DNA of 64,000 bases from the NCBI GenBank assembly GCA_033816765.1, contig CM066292.1, positions 2,790,001-2,854,000 of the forward strand, in the 5' to 3' direction. This document shows positions 51,245 to 64,000 of this stretch, in pieces. This stretch comes from Nothopassalora personata (Eukaryota > Ascomycota > Dothideomycetes > Mycosphaerellales > Mycosphaerellaceae). Below the pieces are notes generated by a model. The model did no database searches, was not told the DNA's origin, and worked only from the letters and a program-made list of their open reading frames with translations. How positions within the stretch are numbered: the first letter of the stretch is position 1; every line of letters begins with the position of its first letter. The position numbers and the translations under genes were made by a program.

Positions 51245-51844
51245 ATGAGCGGCGAGCGGCTAACACGTCAGGAGCGCCGCGAACGTCAAGCACTAGGCAT
51301 CGAAGCCGAGGGCCGCGAGATGCCATCCCCATGTTCTGGTTGTTGAAAGGCCAGAGTGCCTGAAGGAAAGAAGAGTCCTCGTTGTGTGGTGGATGTGCGC
51401 TTTGGGTGTTGTTCGGAGTGCGTTCGCAAGGGTGTCAAATGTGACGTGACTGTCACGTGGACTGAGTGGGAGCGGCTTCGCAACCAGCGTCGAAAGCTGA
51501 AGCGAGAGCTTGATGAGGCTGAAGAGAAGGTGACAGAGGCGATGTCAAAGGTGCATCGTCTTAGGAAACAACTGCGCGTTGCTGAGGACAGGGAGGAAAA
51601 GGCGATAGCGAAGGATTTCGAGGATCTTCGCAGTTTGCCGAGCGTGGGTGTCGATGCCTTTTCCGCGCCTTCGTCCTGTCTTCTCGTTCCTGAAGGTAGC
51701 CCCGAAGAGCTAGAGGGGGTTTTCCAGATGTCGATTCCTTCCTGGGAGGACCTTTCGATGATTCCGGATGATGCCCTCTGGTCATATCCGACCCTTGAGG
51801 ACGCCGCAGCAGCTTCTTCGAGCGCTGGTCCTTCTGGTGGATAG
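51245..51844 (+). pseudogene. Antisense accessory ORF of element 1: Cys-rich coiled-coil protein with one in-frame TGA
   Basis: A single plus-strand frame of 200 codons, antisense to gag-pol, begins 69 bp inside the 3' LTR (MSGERLTRQERRERQ). One TGA at 51344-51346 interrupts it right after CSGC. Downstream residues are SPRCVVDVRFGCCSECVRKGVKCDV, split here as SPRCVVDVRFG then CCSECVRKGVKCDV. Next are W-T-E-W and a long charged helix (RLRNQRRKLKRELDEAEEKV, then VHRLRKQLRVAEDREEKAIA). The tail is acidic and aromatic (SWEDLSMIPDDALWSYPTLED). Layout and motifs (CSxC, CSEC, CDV, AEW/TEW, RKL/DKL-RELE, EAIA) match the antisense gene of element 2. The third Cys spacing is stretched to 13. Either recently inactivated, or read through the TGA; expression data are needed to decide. 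Confidence 0.8.
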
Positions 51845-57471: not shown

Positions 57472-57906
57472 TGTTATTGTCTCGTTCCAGGGCTAGTCTC
57501 AAAAGAGAGATAAGTCAAGTCACGTGGCGGTATTATTCTTTGGAGAGGCTGAAGCAAGCTGAGCGAAGATGAATGATAGGAATAAGAGTTGTATTCCAAT
57601 CAGTGAGATAGTAACATGAGTTGAACGCATCAGAACCATAAGGGTTTCTAGCGTTCCTAAATACAAAGGAGGTTCGTATGCCATCCGGTGTTAGATGTCC
57701 GTCTGTCCACTCGACCGGTCGTCTGGTCGTGTGGTCGTGTACGTCCATACGCTACTTCTGCGGTCGTGTTCGACCATGCACTAAGCGCGCGGTCGTGCAC
57801 GTGACCCGGACGTGGGGTCCCTTTCTCATCCTAGCGATTGGTTCGTGTCTTCTGATTCTTCCTCCCCATGCCACGTCCTGCACCGTCCTTCATCCGAACC
57901 GTAACA
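57472..57906 (-). repeat. Element 1 5' LTR
   Basis: 435-bp LTR, the sense-strand promoter copy. A TATTTA box at 57663-57658 precedes the inferred transcript start near 57630. The right edge is followed by the GCTAC duplication (57907-57911). Confidence 0.97.
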
Positions 57907-60900
57907 GCTACCCTAAAGAAGAAATGGGGTTACGAGTCAATCGCGGTAGACGGATCATCGTTACCTAGCGTAGAATAGGAGACGACACCATTACTACTGG
58001 CTATCTAATAGTACTACGAGAATATTACCTTAGATGTTACTAATATAGCTAGTCATGACATAGTATTAGGTATGCCTTAGTTAAGAAAGTACAATCCAGT
58101 TATCGACTAGAAAAGAGGAGTACTTACATTTAGGTAATGTAACTACGTTATTAGCATTAAACCTACGCATCGACAGCGGACGATAGTAGATGAGGTAAGG
58201 AAACAGCTTAACGTATTCGAGCTTACGCCGAATAGAAGGAACTTAGAACCACCTTCGACCGGGATAGATACTAGCGTGGGGCCGCCGGATTACGAAATTA
58301 CTAGAACGGATAGAAGTAACGCACTATCGAAGGATGCTAGTAGATTGGAGCCAAGTATTCCTAAGGAGTACCTTAAGTAGAAAAGGCTCTTTAAAGAGGA
58401 AAGGGGTAGAGACGCCTTACCTAGACACTAACTATAGGACTATAAGATAAACATTTAGCTAGGGAAGGAGCCTCTATAGGGACCCCTATATTAAATGTCC
58501 GAGAAAGAGCTTAAAACCCTACGAGAATAGCTAAAGGAGAAACTCGATAAAGGATAAATAAGAAGATCTACCTTAAGTACGGGAACTCTATATATGTTTA
58601 TTCTAAAACCGAACGGGAAACTACAACTCGTATAAGACTACCGAAAGTTGAACGAGATTACGATAAAGAACCGATATCTACTACCGAATATCGAAGAAGC
58701 ATAGGACCGACTTACCGGATCCGACTAGTACACGAAGATCGATCTACGAGATGCCTTCTACGCTATCCGAATGGCGGAAGGAGAGGAATAGAAAACCGCA
58801 TTTAGAACACGATACGGACTCTACGAATTCTTAGTTATACTAATAGAACTAACTAACGCACCCGCATCCTATTAAGACCTAGTTAATAAGACGCTAAGAG
58901 AACTTCTCGACGTGTGCGTTATTACCTATATAGACGACATCCTCGTCTACACTAAGGGATTACTATAGAACTACGTTAGACAAGTCTAGGACGTCTTCGA
59001 GCGCCTTACACGAGTAGGATTCAAGACGGCACTAGAAAAATGCGAGTTCTATAAGAAACAAGTTAAATTCCTCGGATTCATTATAAGCATAATAGGAATC
59101 TAGATCGACCTAGTAAAGATACAGTCTATCGAAGAATGGCCGACACTAGCTAACGTTAAGGACGTATAATTATTCCTTAGACTCGCGAACTACAACCGCA
59201 AGTTTATTAAGAATTACTCTAAGACGGCTATAGCTATAACTGCACTTACTAGAAAAGACACTAAATAGACCTAGGGCAATAAAGAACGATAAGCTTTCGA
59301 AACACTTAAAAGACAGTACGCCTTAGCACTAACGCTTCGACTGTTCGACGGAATAAAGGAAGTCTAAATCGAAACGGACGCATTGGACATAGCTATAGGC
59401 GCATGCCTTACATAAGAACACGATAGGAAAAGACACCCAGTGGCCTATTACTTAAGGAAAATAACACTCGCGGAACAAAACTACGACATCTATAATAAGA
59501 AACTTCTCGCTATTGTCGCTATAATGCAGTACTAGAGAGTATACGCGGAAGGAGCACCTAAGCTAACGATTCTTTCTAATCATAAGAATCTCACTTACTT
59601 TACTATAACAAAAGTACTAACCCGAAGACAGGCCCGCTAGTCGGAACTGCTTAGATAGTATAAGTTTAAAATCCGCTATACCGTAGGAAAAGACAACGGT
59701 AGGGCCGACGCACTAAGCCGAAGAAGCGACTACATAGAAGGAAAGGAACTAGTGCGACAATAAGTACTTAAGACTAATCTAAATAGAAGTCTAAGCGCTA
59801 ACATAAAGGAGTTTAATAACATAGTGCGCGTTCTTTAGGACATAGAAGAACAGTTCCTACTAGCATAAGGAAGATACTAAGTACCGAAAGAACGAGAAGA
59901 AGAATGTATACGATAACATTACGATAACCTAATGTACGGACATCCTAGAACTATAAAAACTCTCGAGATTATATAACGTAGCTTCTCATTTCTATAAATA
60001 AGATAGAAGGTATTAAACTACATTAAGCAATGTGTTTACTATTAACAAAATAAGGCTATACGACACGAGAGATATAGACAAATATAGTTTAGGACACCGC
60101 CGATACAACTATAGGACGAAGTTATAATAGACTTTATTACGAAACTTCCTATATCCACGGACAAGGCGATAGGCACGGAATACGACATAATACTAGTTAT
60201 AGTCGATCGCCTAACGAAATATGCACACTTTATACCTACTAGCGAGACATATATAGTAGAACAACTCGGATATCTCGTTCTCGATAACCTAGTACGATAC
60301 TACGGATTCCTAAAGGTCTTTATTATAGACCGAGACAAGCTGTTTACATCTAACTACTAGAAGACTCTTATAGCGGAAGTTAGTATATAACATAAACTGT
60401 CTACGGTATATCACCCATAAACGGACGGATAAACTAAGAGAGCAAATTAAACCTTAGAACAATACCTACGACACTACGTTAACTACGTATAAGACAATTA
60501 GGTATTACTCCTACCTATAGCACAACTTGCACTAAACAATCATAAATCGGAAACAATAGGCGAGACACCTTTCTTCGTAAACTTCGGAAAACACCCTATA
60601 CTATTTAGTAAAAAGAGAAGTTACCTATAGGCAGATAAGGCAATTGCTATAATAGAGGACCTAAAAAAGATACACGATTCCGTTAATGAACGGATTAGGG
60701 ATTTATAGTAACGGCTCGTTAAATCTCGGCAAAAACGACAAATAGCACCTTAGCTAAAGAAGGGGGATAAGGTCTATCTTCTTACGAAAAACCTTAAGAC
60801 AAGGAGAAAGACTAAAAAACTAGATTATGTAAAAGTCGGGCTATTTCTCGTTAAAGAACTACGAGGATTACTTAACTACCGACTACGACTACTAAAGGAC

Positions 60901-61146
60901 GCTAAAATCTATCTAGTATTTCATATCTCTATGTTAGAACCCGTAGACCCTAAGACGCTATACTAAGAAACATTCCACTACTAACTAGAAGAAGAAATAG
61001 AGTTCGAAGTTGAAAGGATCCTAGATAAAAGAGGTTAGCGATACCTTGTTAAGTAGAAAGGATACGATAACTCAGAAAACACTTAGGAACTAACCGACAA
61101 CCTTATAAACTGCTCGTAGGCCCTACGACAGTTCTATCAAAACTAG
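57907..61146 (+). pseudogene. Old chromovirus pol, RIP-destroyed (part 2)
   Basis: Resumes the protease exactly where part 1 stopped and continues through RT, RNase H, integrase and chromodomain, colinear with intact Pol. Relics can be read: the catalytic YMDD appears as TATATAGACGAC (58928) where Met became Ile. HPETDGQTE remains as CACCCATAAACGGACGGATAAACT, shown here only as a landmark near 60411. Chromodomain motif FEVERILDK is intact near 61000. TAG and TAA replace CAG, CAA and TGG throughout. There are no large deletions, so the element was probably full length before RIP. Confidence 0.9.
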
Positions 61147-61168
61147 TAGTTAACTCGGCGAGAGAAGA

Positions 61169-61496
61169 CTACAAGAAGGCGGCGCTAGAACCGGAGTCTA
61201 ACTACGGAGGATCCTCGCTAGGGAACTACTAGCCCTCTAAAAGATTAGTAGCAGATTGCTCGCCTTCCTCTAGGCGCTAGATGTCGGCCTCCTTAACGGC
61301 TATCGCCTCCTCTACACGACGATCGAGAAGGTCTATCTCCTTCTAAATCCGGAGGTCCTCCCCCTAGGCTCGACTCTCCTCCTCGTATAGGTGCTAAATC
61401 TCCTTTTAAAGGGCTAGCGCCCTCTCTCGGAGATCGCGTGTCTTTTCGCGATTCCGTACCTTGCGCTCCCGAAGCAGTTTATGCTACTTCTCTAAT
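61169..61496 (-). pseudogene. Old element's antisense accessory gene, RIP-destroyed (distal part)
   Basis: Read on the minus strand, this is one continuous frame broken only by TAG and TAA. It continues the fragment at 63903-64000 once element 2 and one target duplication are ignored. Landmarks match the antisense gene of element 2: a charged helix (KLLRERKVRNREK), VEEAIAVKEAD against GEAIAVEEAS, and two adjacent TAG followed by FPSEDPP against WWFPASDPS, i.e. two Trp codons lost to RIP. It ends about 20 bp from the old pol stop, tail to tail. Confidence 0.75.
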
Positions 61497-61501
61497 CTCG
61501 A

Positions 61502-61820
61502 TGTTACGGATCGGTCTGGGGAAGCCCGTAGCCAACCAATCGATGCCAGCAGACCAGCGGATGCACCCGATATGCAGAGTGCTCTCAGTGCTCTCGGGTG
61601 CTCTCTCGAGAGAGCAGAGAGAGCAGAGAGAGCAGGAAAGATCACGCCAAGACACGGCACTATATAGACGACGCTCTTTTGCAAGTAGATAGGAGCCTCG
61701 TGCTCAACTCATTTTAAGTATACACCATATACTGTTTGGGACCACTACCTTCTCAACGAGTCAGAGACATCACTGCAAAGATCCAAGCCCAGTTGGGATA
61801 ACGTACAGCGGTTCCTAACA
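61502..61820 (+). repeat. Element 2 5' LTR
   Basis: 319 bp. U3 contains alternating GCTCTC and GAGAGAGC arrays centred on an 18-bp perfect palindrome (61599-61616). TATATA at 61661-61666 precedes the inferred transcript start near 61695-61700. Confidence 0.95.
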
Positions 61821-61831
61821 ACTTTGAGCAC
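61821..61831 (+). other. Element 2 primer-binding site, self-priming type
   Basis: Just after the LTR, ACTTTGAGCAC contains TTGAGCAC (61824-61831), the exact reverse complement of GTGCTCAA in the LTR (61700-61707). That LTR site lies about 35 nt after the TATATA box. No tRNA-type TGG start is seen. Confidence 0.65.
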
Positions 61832-61852
61832 CACCACCAGGGCCCTTTGCAT

Positions 61853-62845
61853 ATGTCTGGGAGAGACGCTACCCGGAGTCCGTCACGACAACAGCCACAG
61901 TCAACTGGCATCACGGAACGAATGAGCGAAATGTCGATTACAGGAAGCAGCAAGAACAACAACACTCCTATGGGTATGCTGAACCCATTGGACCACCACC
62001 GTGCACCTAAGGTGTCTACGCCGGAGACGTTCGACGGGACCAAGGACAAACTGGAGGCTTTTCAACTGCAGGTTCAGTTGTACCTTCACTTCAACGCACA
62101 CCAGTTTCAAGGCGAGGCTTCTAAAGTCTTGTACGCCGCATCCTTCCTACGAGGAAAAGCAGCTAGAGGATTCCGACCATACCTCAAGGACTGGCTACAC
62201 AACCAGGGCGAGGGAGAAACACCGAAAACGGAAACTCGAAAAATTTTCCACGACTACGACGAGTTTGAGACGAAACTCGATGATCTATACGGGATACCAA
62301 ATGAGGAGGTATACGCCGACCGACATATCCGACAACTTCGACAGACTACTTCTGTAGCGCTGTACGCCTCAGAATTCCAAGGATATGCCGCCGACCTGGA
62401 ATGGAACGACGCAGCTTTGCGATCGCAGTTCTACCTCGGGCTGAAAGACAACGTCAAAGCCGAACTATCCCGAAACGCCAGCGTCGTTACGCTAGGGGCG
62501 ATGATCAAGGCAGCAAAGGAGATCGACGAAAGGCTCCAGGAGTTGAGGTACGACCGACACGTACAGCCTGGATACCAGAGACCCGCCGCGGGCGGAAGAG
62601 GGGGCTTCAAGGCCAGAAGTCAGGACCCTAATGGTTACGGAGACCCAATGGAATTGGACGTAACGGAACGTAGGACAGGAAGGGGGCTGAAGAGCAAAGG
62701 TTCCACCTGCTACGTATGTGGCGAGCGAGGCCATTTTGCAAGGAACTGCAAGAAAAAGAACATGGTTAGCCGCGAGTTCAACGCAATGATTCGCGAAGAG
62801 AATGCATACCAGGAATGCGAGAGCTTTCTCTCGAAATCTGCCTAG
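61853..62845 (+). CDS. gag: Element 2 Gag
   Basis: 330 aa from the ATG at 61853 (MSGRDATRSPSRQQPQ). The capsid-like region has ETFDGTKDKLEAFQLQVQLYL, then FLRGKAARGFRPYLKDWL and VALYASEFQGYAADLEWND, matching the Gag pattern of Ty3-type elements. One zinc knuckle CYVCGERGHFARNC (CX2CX4HX4C) is near the C-terminus. It is more diverged from element 1 Gag than the old copy is. After the TAG stop the frame stays open for 18 codons to a second TAG, then for more than 30 further codons; no protease or RT follows. It probably coats RNA and assembles particles that recruit another element's Pol. Confidence 0.9.
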   Translation: MSGRDATRSPSRQQPQSTGITERMSEMSITGSSKNNNTPMGMLNPLDHHRAPKVSTPETFDGTKDKLEAFQLQVQLYLHFNAHQFQGEASKVLYAASFLRGKAARGFRPYLKDWLHNQGEGETPKTETRKIFHDYDEFETKLDDLYGIPNEEVYADRHIRQLRQTTSVALYASEFQGYAADLEWNDAALRSQFYLGLKDNVKAELSRNASVVTLGAMIKAAKEIDERLQELRYDRHVQPGYQRPAAGGRGGFKARSQDPNGYGDPMELDVTERRTGRGLKSKGSTCYVCGERGHFARNCKKKNMVSREFNAMIREENAYQECESFLSKSA

Positions 62846-62949
62846 CAGAAACGACCTGACGATAAAGGCATCAAACAGCGGCTTCTTGATTTGATGACCT
62901 AGGACACAGAAGTCAACACTACGACACGGAAAACAGATAAAGGACGAAC

Positions 62950-63510
62950 TTACGACGAGACCAACTCCGAGAAGGATTCAGGAAGGAGGAGATTCCCATC
63001 CAAGGACAAGCTAGGGTCGAAGACCGAAGGATCGGAGGCAGGAAACCACCAGTCTTCCGGGATGGAAGGCGGAGCGGCCTCGAGCTCCCCTTGTTCTAAC
63101 ACTTGGATGCTCGCCTCCTCGACAGCGATCGCCTCGCCCTCGCGCTTTTCGTGCAGCTCAAGCTGACGACGAAGACGCGCCTCCTTCGCATAGGCTGCCG
63201 CGATCTCTTCACTCTTGCGAACGAGATCATGACGGACCGCTTCAAGCTCACGGGTGAGCTTGTCCCGTACGGACTGAAGGGACTTCCACTCAGCAGGAGT
63301 GACTCGCACGTCACAACCCTTGATGTTGTGTTCGTTGCACTCCGAACAGCGGCCCGATTTGATGTGGACACGGCACACCTTTTTCTCACGAGTGCAGAAA
63401 GAGCACGACTTGACCATAGTAATCCCGTTCTCTCGAATGAACTTGGCAAGCTTCTTGCGACGATGCGTACTGGTTTTGGTGACGGGAAGGGAAAGGGAAG
63501 AAGAAGACAT
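62950..63510 (-). CDS. Antisense accessory protein: Zn(II)2Cys6-like cluster plus coiled coil
   Basis: Intact 186-aa ORF on the strand opposite gag, starting 73 bp inside the 3' LTR and ending 104 bp from the gag stop. A basic N-terminus (THRRKKLAKF) precedes six cysteines at 36, 39, 46, 55, 58 and 66: C-X2-C-X6-C-X8-C-X2-C-X7-C. This spacing falls within the fungal binuclear zinc-cluster consensus, although basic residues between Cys2 and Cys3 (TREKKV) are fewer than in typical factors. A long charged coiled coil follows (about 75-135), as in dimeric zinc-cluster regulators. The tail is acidic and aromatic (PEDWWFPASDPSVFD), resembling an activation region. DNA binding and regulation, of the LTR or of host genes, are inferred. 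Retained although pol is lost. Confidence 0.82.
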   Translation of the reverse strand: MSSSSLSLPVTKTSTHRRKKLAKFIRENGITMVKSCSFCTREKKVCRVHIKSGRCSECNEHNIKGCDVRVTPAEWKSLQSVRDKLTRELEAVRHDLVRKSEEIAAAYAKEARLRRQLELHEKREGEAIAVEEASIQVLEQGELEAAPPSIPEDWWFPASDPSVFDPSLSLDGNLLLPESFSELVSS

Positions 63511-63570
63511 CGTTGGATGACAAAGTTGGAAAGGAATGACATCTTGTAAGCTTCGGGACGAAGCTAGGCT

Positions 63571-63583
63571 AGAAGGGGGATGG
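63571..63583 (+). other. Element 2 polypurine tract
   Basis: AGAAGGGGGATGG abuts the 3' LTR. It shares GAAGGGGGATGG almost exactly with element 1, consistent with use of a common reverse transcriptase/RNase H. Confidence 0.85.
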
Positions 63584-63902
63584 TGTTACGGATCGGTCTG
63601 GGGAAGCCCGTAGCCAACCAATCGATGCCAGCAGACCAGCGGATGCACCCGATATGCAGAGTGCTCTCAGTGCTCTCGGGTGCTCTCTCGAGAGAGCAGA
63701 GAGAGCAGAGAGAGCAGGAAAGATCACGCCAAGACACGGCACTATATAGACGACGCTCTTTTGCAAGTAGATAGGAGCCTCGTGCTCAACTCATTTTAAG
63801 TATACACCATATACTGTTTGGGACCACTACCTTCTCAACGAGTCAGAGACATCACTGCAAAGATCCAAGCCCAGTTGGGATAACGTACAGCGGTTCCTAA
63901 CA
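63584..63902 (+). repeat. Element 2 3' LTR
   Basis: 319 bp, same sequence as 61502-61820. In minus orientation it lies directly upstream of the antisense gene, so it could provide that gene's promoter. Followed by the CTCGA duplication. Confidence 0.95.
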
Positions 63903-64000
63903 CTCGACTACTCCGCCTTTATAACCCGAATATTACAATCCTTCTTATTCCCCTTAGTGTAGGCACCGCATCTCCCGGAGCTTACGAGCACGCGATAGAT
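63903..64000 (-). pseudogene. Old element's antisense accessory gene, RIP-destroyed (proximal part, cut by window end)
   Basis: Minus-strand reading of the last bases gives YRVLVSSGRC, then GAY, seven residues, C, then IRV and AE before a TAG. This aligns with CRVHIKSGRC-SEC-X7-C-VRV-AEW of element 2's antisense protein. Two Cys codons have become Tyr (TGY to TAY) and Trp has become TAG, all RIP-type changes. The cysteine spacing is identical to element 2. The gene's start lies beyond the window. Confidence 0.75.

Follow-up and report, generated by a model that had tools for sequence, protein, structure and literature searches.

The stretch of Nothopassalora personata DNA analysed here (64,000 nucleotides of contig CM066292.1, positions 2,790,001 to 2,854,000; hereafter the window) contains a gag-only long terminal repeat (LTR) retrotransposon, element 2, which carries an additional gene on the strand opposite to gag. 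Element 2 occupies 61,502–63,902 and is inserted into the 3′ end of a decayed Ty3 copy. Its two LTRs (61,502–61,820 and 63,584–63,902, both on the plus strand) are 319 bases each with no mismatch between them, and CTCGA flanks both ends (61,497–61,501 before the 5′ LTR and 63,903–63,907 after the 3′ LTR); element 2 is recent. The gag gene (61,853–62,845, plus strand) encodes 330 amino acids with a capsid domain and a CCHC knuckle (Retrotrans_gag 8.9e-11, zf-CCHC 1.7e-6), and no pol open reading frame (ORF) lies downstream of it. With its LTRs, gag, polypurine tract (PPT) and CTCGA target duplication, element 2 has the features of a Ty3 (chromovirus) LTR element. The full-length form in the same window, element 1, has reverse transcriptase, RNase H, integrase and a chromodomain in the Pfam scan.

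The antisense protein and its surroundings

The additional gene, an antisense ORF (aORF) of 186 codons at 62,950–63,510 on the minus strand, was recognized by its reading frame, its relatives, helix prediction and cysteine spacing, and its start codon lies 73 bases away from the 3′ LTR. The original prediction had described its product as a protein with six regularly spaced cysteines, a basic lead, a coiled coil and an acidic aromatic tail, and our recomputation agrees with this description. The cysteines stand at residues 36, 39, 46, 55, 58 and 66 (63,313–63,405, minus strand), giving the pattern C-X2-C-X6-C-X8-C-X2-C-X7-C. Before them, the first 34 residues hold eight K/R against one D/E; behind them, a single predicted helix, a predicted coiled coil, covers residues 72–145 (63,076–63,297, minus strand). 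By residue counts, the tail (residues 141–186; 62,953–63,090, minus strand) is acidic and aromatic, with nine D/E, no K/R and 12 F/W/Y/L in the final 46 residues.

The Zn2Cys6 family (PF00172) is defined by six cysteines in the order CX2CX6CX5-12CX2CX6-8C, and the spacing in the window aORF fits this definition. We call the protein Zn2Cys6-like, without filing it under PF00172, because its profile score lies below the Pfam cut-off. Searches of PDB sequences gave no usable match, either with the window protein (five rows, E 0.26–0.87) or with a family profile (14 rows, of which the best, at 0.0009, fell on a helical segment in a FemA-type protein and LAC9 reached E 0.62). Overall, a Zn2Cys6-like regulator is supported by the cysteine spacing, the predicted fold and the conservation over 21 classes described below, and the aORF product is very probably a DNA-binding regulator.

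Between the aORF and the 3′ LTR lie a hairpin, AGCTTCG-GGA-CGAAGCT (63,549–63,565, no strand assigned), and directly behind it the PPT, AGAAGGGGGATGG (63,571–63,583, plus strand), which was read from the sequence; a similar purine-rich tract was present in the leaders of 21 classes. The hairpin arms vary by class (AGCTTCG, AGCTCTG, AACTCG, AGTTCCG, GATCG, CCGTG, ATTGTTG) with their complementarity kept. At most 3.5% of shuffled sequences match the hairpin in 18 of the 21 leaders, and L037, L043 and L044 are weaker (10–14%). The hairpin may act as an RNA signal in plus-strand priming, in packaging or in the antisense leader. A match between hairpin arm and U3 repeat was seen by eye in L032 and L035 only, so that idea was dropped.

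The aORF family and its exchange between backbones

The genome to which the window belongs (54.5 Mb in 40 contigs) was searched for relatives of the aORF. With the best 150 of 781 candidates scored, so that all counts are lower bounds, at least 32 matches were 99–100% identical to the window aORF, 27 of them stop-free, and the other listed matches had 34–46% identity. Queries with other aORF classes gave further matches, again as minimum numbers. The search with gag yielded at least 121 copies (of 1043 candidates), and in 116 of these 121 listed copies an aORF lies downstream on the opposite strand, toward the 3′ LTR; none has one on the same strand. Three of the five gag copies without a listed aORF were examined: L038 and L045 have a shortened aORF, and in L052 gag is the sole ORF of at least 110 amino acids. 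Of at least 150 matches to the pol query, a 249-amino-acid C-terminus, the census covered 81 with identities of 86% and above and 17 at 75%, all stop-free over the query; the other 52 bear stops and stand outside it. An antisense aORF on the 3′ LTR side accompanies 77 of the 81. For the more distant group of 17, no aORF was among the matches listed, yet the one copy examined, L066, has one. About 20 weak aORF matches, duplicates and part of the stop-bearing matches were left out of the census, an omission that can only lower the number of pairings, and an aORF missing among the matches listed is not the same as an aORF absent. The arrangement is that of the plant-type aORF-3R, an antisense ORF between pol or gag and the 3′ LTR in most copies. 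Relatives at the same site and on the opposite strand, for which the original prediction had proposed a search, are present in many elements of the genome, and further relatives occur among public proteins; its refuting alternative, no homologues in other elements, does not apply.

The aORF of element 1 (51,245–51,844, plus strand), antisense to gag-pol and matched at G000 C6:2841275-2841775, has one in-frame stop, and stop-free copies occur as well. Between the two elements, at 57,906–61,501, lies the decayed Ty3 copy, which has accumulated numerous TAG/TAA changes resembling those of repeat-induced mutation and in which an aORF remnant is legible near 61,170–61,500 (minus strand). A tandem of six gag copies at a spacing of 2056 bases, with an aORF accompanying each, was seen at G000:C12:1355698-1367583. 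One aORF class with a shared stop pattern (four TAG, one TAA) recurs on contigs C9, C20, C21, C30, C31, C33, C34, C39 and C40; these copies, near the contig start on C9, are perhaps subtelomeric.

Twenty-one aORF classes were examined, and all 21 keep the six cysteines. Fourteen are on the same gag family and six on gag-pol backbones, and for one (L060) the backbone was not read. For L055, L057, L058 and L062, gag was assigned from a neighbouring or sister copy or from the gag match list; four gag-pol classes were assigned from their ORFs, and L056 and L066 from the pol match list. Complete classes encode 159–240 amino acids, and in one clade of relatives the second and third cysteines are 11–13 residues apart. 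Three overlapping searches of public proteins (8, 32 and 16 rows) gave 47 distinct relatives, with lgn, jgi or ena as the source in all but one, a hypothetical protein of Elasticomyces elasticus; some of the 47, for example P0001, P0008 and P0030, are without one or more of the six cysteines. Two of them, P0010 and P0011, are labelled 'galactokinase' by their source, a label that misfits the sequence, which is a zinc-cluster aORF. Among viral contigs, 80 pattern matches included no aORF relative.

The aORF is not a chance reading frame, because near-identical copies and diverged relatives occur in the genome and in public proteins; the codon evidence also speaks against chance. For L039 and L055, the nonsynonymous divergence (dN) was 0.073 and the synonymous divergence (dS) 0.85, a ratio of 0.086. 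Five further pairs had dN/dS of 0.16–0.22 at dS 1.5–2.3, where the estimates are rough, and dS was saturated for three of the nine pairs. The aORFs are therefore old protein genes under purifying selection.

The same classes differ sharply from their carriers in silent-site divergence. Across the 36 pairs of nine gag-only elements, gag dS was 0–0.033 versus 1.2 to saturation for the aORF; a tenth gag-only element, L046, had a gag dS of 0.13–0.17. Similarly, W1, L032 and L035 had pol dS of 0.05–0.11 versus aORF dS of 2.5 or saturated. When W2 was compared with L034 and L036, the backbone likeness stopped 85 bases past gag, just ahead of the aORF stop, and resumed 36–38 bases upstream of the aORF start codon; in L040, it was lost sooner past gag. 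Rapid protein evolution in place was rejected, the aORF silent sites being near saturation against 0–3% in gag. Because near-identical carriers bear aORFs diverged near saturation, exchange between elements is the only explanation that we can see, and the cassettes have almost certainly been exchanged.

Class-specific U3 blocks and their coupling to the aORF

When the LTRs of 12 gag-only elements (11 classes) were aligned, the first eight bases, TGTTACGG, proved invariant, and the following 100–180 bases or so varied by class. A near-constant part begins a little ahead of the TATA block GGCACTATATAG (63,738–63,749 in the window, plus strand), which marks the end of the class-specific U3 region; from there on, the R and U5 regions, leader and gag hardly differ among these 12 elements, except that the 5′ LTR of L046 has a variant R-U5. 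The variable U3 block is often repetitive, as with GACGAGCA in L043, GAGAGCAA/GAGATCAA in L040, CGACC in W1 and L057, and TGCTCTC/GAGAGCA in the window class. The latter forms an array of six short repeats (iterons) at 63,662–63,716 (no strand assigned) and at 61,580–61,634 in the 5′ LTR, which we regard as candidate binding sites. In a test of repeated 6-mers against 1000 dinucleotide shuffles (threshold p ≤ 0.01), the window array had a p value of 0.001, and 10 of the 20 classes tested passed (W2, W1, L031, L032, L035, L043, L047, L055, L056 and L062). A TG[AC]TC core, chosen post hoc, occurs 7–18 times in the U3 of 12 of the 20 classes and about once in shuffles.

Within the window class, U3 is stable: all 30 loci L001–L030 keep 94.5–100% of it, with five to seven iterons. 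A genome search with the window U3 (best 40 of 170 candidates) returned 82 rows, 41 strong and 41 weak 55-base ones on the other strand. Visual inspection placed 26 of the 41 strong matches in elements of the window aORF class; the remaining 15 stand apart as solo LTR candidates, and none of them has another listed aORF as a correctly oriented neighbour at a distance of up to about 1 kb.

In 11 of 20 classes, compared with 1.1 by shuffle, U3 has a CCAAT box no more than 75 bases from its start (63,618–63,622 in the window), and CACGTG occurs in the leader or U3 of 11 of 20 classes; both are possible host-factor sites or parts of an antisense promoter. A CGG-N2-CGG motif at the LTR end did not prove general when several class LTRs were checked by eye.

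The U3 block changes alongside the aORF. Over the 21 classes, aORF identity and U3 6-mer similarity were correlated (r 0.20, p 0.009; r 0.27, p 0.002 without the discordant L058), and the 10 class pairs with at least 50% aORF identity had a U3 similarity of 0.25 versus 0.11 (p 0.004). Pairs whose cores differ account for the coupling (r 0.37). This linear coupling is significant but modest and loose, which could reflect rapid turnover of binding sites or, in part, plain adjacency on the RNA.

Proposed control of the element's own LTR and its alternatives

The original prediction had offered three roles for the aORF protein: control of the element's own LTR, dampening of host silencing and action on host promoters. 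Own-LTR control has the best fit, since a change of aORF goes along with a change of the variable U3 block, and the element's own U3 is probably the target of the protein. A basic lead, a zinc cluster, a helix and an acidic-aromatic tail, encoded beside a class-specific block upstream of the TATA box, suggest a self-directed activator. The antisense gene, transcribed from a putative promoter within or beside the 3′ LTR, would yield a small Zn2Cys6-like protein, probably a dimer, whose acidic-aromatic tail would serve in activation. This protein would enter the nucleus and bind motifs particular to its class within the U3 of the element's LTRs. Binding would turn on the element's own transcription, forming a self-specific positive loop. 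The aORF, the PPT and the upstream part of U3 would make up one cassette; because they are contiguous at the 3′ end of the RNA, reverse transcription could swap them, possibly by first-strand transfer to a second RNA and a later change of template close to where gag or pol ends. For activation of the own LTR, we hold the chances for and against to be about equal, and the complete self-specific loop, our best explanation, is likewise evenly balanced. More tentatively still, the genome may harbour many such self-recognizing circuits, each an antisense zinc-cluster factor with its own U3 array, swapped as single units between nearly identical gag-only and gag-pol backbones, which would let elements evade silencing or interference directed at their former cassette.

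Several results weigh against this activator loop. On the protein side, Pfam Zn_clus scored 10.4 bits on the window protein, below the curated cut-off of 21; it matched only three of 14 scanned family members at E ≤ 1 (best E 0.064). Of the transcription-factor build proposed originally, the spacing, predicted fold and conservation over 21 classes stand, but this profile score does not reach the family cut-off. The structure prediction proposed with it came out similarly mixed: the models look like Zn2Cys6 DNA-binding domains, but Foldseek with two models gave no match at E ≤ 0.001. On the DNA side, 10 of 20 classes failed the U3 repeat test, L040 narrowly (0.012) and L057 clearly (0.14). The usual site of a Zn2Cys6 protein is a CGG triplet, and the iterons are mostly of the TG[AC]TC type, again with the core selected post hoc. 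As to coupling, same-core pairs showed an r of 0.03, and the rank correlation between aORF and U3 was not significant (p 0.06–0.18). The single listed copy of L058 (G000:C9:892400-893750) combines a U3 of the L037 class with a different aORF, and in L031/L035, L032/L047 and L037/L043/L044, aORFs 52–62% identical go with unlike U3s. Because U3 adjoins the aORF on the RNA, joint transfer alone would yield part of the pattern.

Four other explanations were weighed against the same evidence. A repressor or immunity module, in which the protein would turn off its own LTR as a form of copy-number control and keep out elements that share its sites, so that a swapped cassette creates a heteroimmune element, has its parallel in the lambdoid phage immunity regions, where heteroimmunity arises by cassette swap. 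The regulator and its cis-acting block do change as a unit over a near-identical backbone, and many classes coexist, but the acidic-aromatic tail of the window protein has no K/R, and several classes have reached at least 12 near-identical copies, which fits activation at least equally; we consider repression improbable. Somewhat less so, though still unlikely, is sequence-specific anti-silencing of the VANC type, in which the protein would bind its own repeated motifs and strip silent marks without recruiting the transcription machinery. The fast-changing U3 beside a conserved backbone would suit it, as would the many genome copies whose multiple TAG/TAA stops resemble the outcome of repeat-induced mutation, and VANC targets are often tandem repeats that differ among related elements, related VANCs acting on different sets (PMC5735166, PMC10398659). 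On the other hand, the aORF protein is built like a transcription factor, with its basic lead and acidic tail, the variable block lies immediately upstream of the TATA box, and no VANC domain (DUF1985/DUF287) was among the families matched by the window protein at E ≤ 1.

The protein could instead be a replication or integration cofactor (a cDNA chaperone or a factor in nuclear import or target-site choice), antisense by chance, with U3 hitchhiking. Adjacency alone would carry U3 along with the aORF, and L058 and the related aORFs with unlike U3s show how loose the link is. Against this stand the significant repeat arrays in half of the U3 blocks and the tendency of related aORFs to have U3 words in common even where their backbones differ (r 0.37 across core types); we consider a cofactor a rather remote prospect. 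Hardly tenable is the view that the antisense RNA itself, as a silencing trigger, is the product and the open frame incidental. Such transcripts may feed small-RNA silencing, as discussed for plants (PMC7264820), but the codon evidence largely refutes this view, with dN/dS of 0.09–0.22 and the six cysteines kept at dS near or above 1.

Comparison with known systems

Among cellular proteins, the fungal Zn2Cys6 factors Gal4, Leu3, HAP1 and Pho7 resemble the aORF product in cysteine spacing, in a cluster fold (predicted for the aORF) followed by a long helix, and in the acidic tail. The aORFs differ in their length of 159–240 amino acids, in the spacing of 11–13 between the second and third cysteines in one clade and in scoring below the Pfam cut-off. 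The shuffling of circuits proposed above resembles that of phage immunity regions.

Of known antisense regulators beside a 3′ LTR, HBZ of human T-cell leukaemia virus type 1 (HTLV-1), a bZIP-type factor, comes closest; foamy virus Tas is a virus-encoded transactivator of its own LTR. We know of no cassette exchange in the HBZ or Tas systems. No bZIP family was among the window-protein families at E ≤ 1. HBZ is antisense and nuclear, and the HTLV antisense promoter lies inside the 3′ LTR (PMC11963269, PMC7264820).

VANC of the Arabidopsis VANDAL elements offers the closest parallel for a protein whose repeated, rapidly evolving targets lie in the DNA of the element that encodes it: here too an element-encoded protein faces fast-diverging tandem repeats in the element's non-coding DNA. 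VANDAL is a DNA transposon whose protein has other domains and a demonstrated function, whereas that of the aORF is predicted, and cassette exchange is not described in the available portions of the VANC papers (PMC5735166, PMC10398659).

In fungi, the Boty-like (Ty3) elements of Botrytis cinerea are reported to have an extra gene in antisense orientation, named brtn (Zhao et al. 2011, as cited by PMC7264820 and PMC8365987). As here, it is an antisense gene in a fungal LTR element with gag-pol and a chromodomain (PMC7264820, PMC8365987, PMC4227169), and a Monilinia transcript has 63% identity to BRTN (PMC5987419). BRTN may be a relative of the aORF family. The original statement that no fungal family of this kind had been described was thus too strong, given the brtn precedent (PMC7264820, PMC8365987). 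In a title- and abstract-level search, no listed paper described an antisense gene of the zinc-cluster type in fungal LTR elements or the exchange of a regulator together with U3. Because antisense ORFs at this site are known from Retand, Grande and brtn, the zinc-cluster/U3 cassette is best regarded as a variant of a known arrangement.

The plant Ty3 elements Grande, RIRE2 and Retand (TRP28) have their antisense ORFs at the same site. In Retand, TRP28 is encoded in 97% of clusters and, according to its author, is probably able to bind DNA; about half of the clusters have tandem-repeat arrays between pol and the 3′ LTR (PMC11963269). The repeats described here differ in lying within U3 and in changing with the aORF, and the TRP28 domain PF04195 was not among the window-protein families at E ≤ 1. 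Plant antisense genes beside the 3′ LTR have been known for years without an assigned function (PMC7264820, PMC11963269). In the fungal family, the type of protein can be recognized and the selection acting on it measured, a candidate target is adjacent and many natural swaps exist on a near-constant backbone. With such a protein, target and swaps, the long-standing question of what these antisense genes do becomes directly testable. If the activator loop holds, the family would offer a ready set of DNA-binding domains, each paired with short motifs, and would clearly exemplify retroelement evolution through the exchange of regulators.
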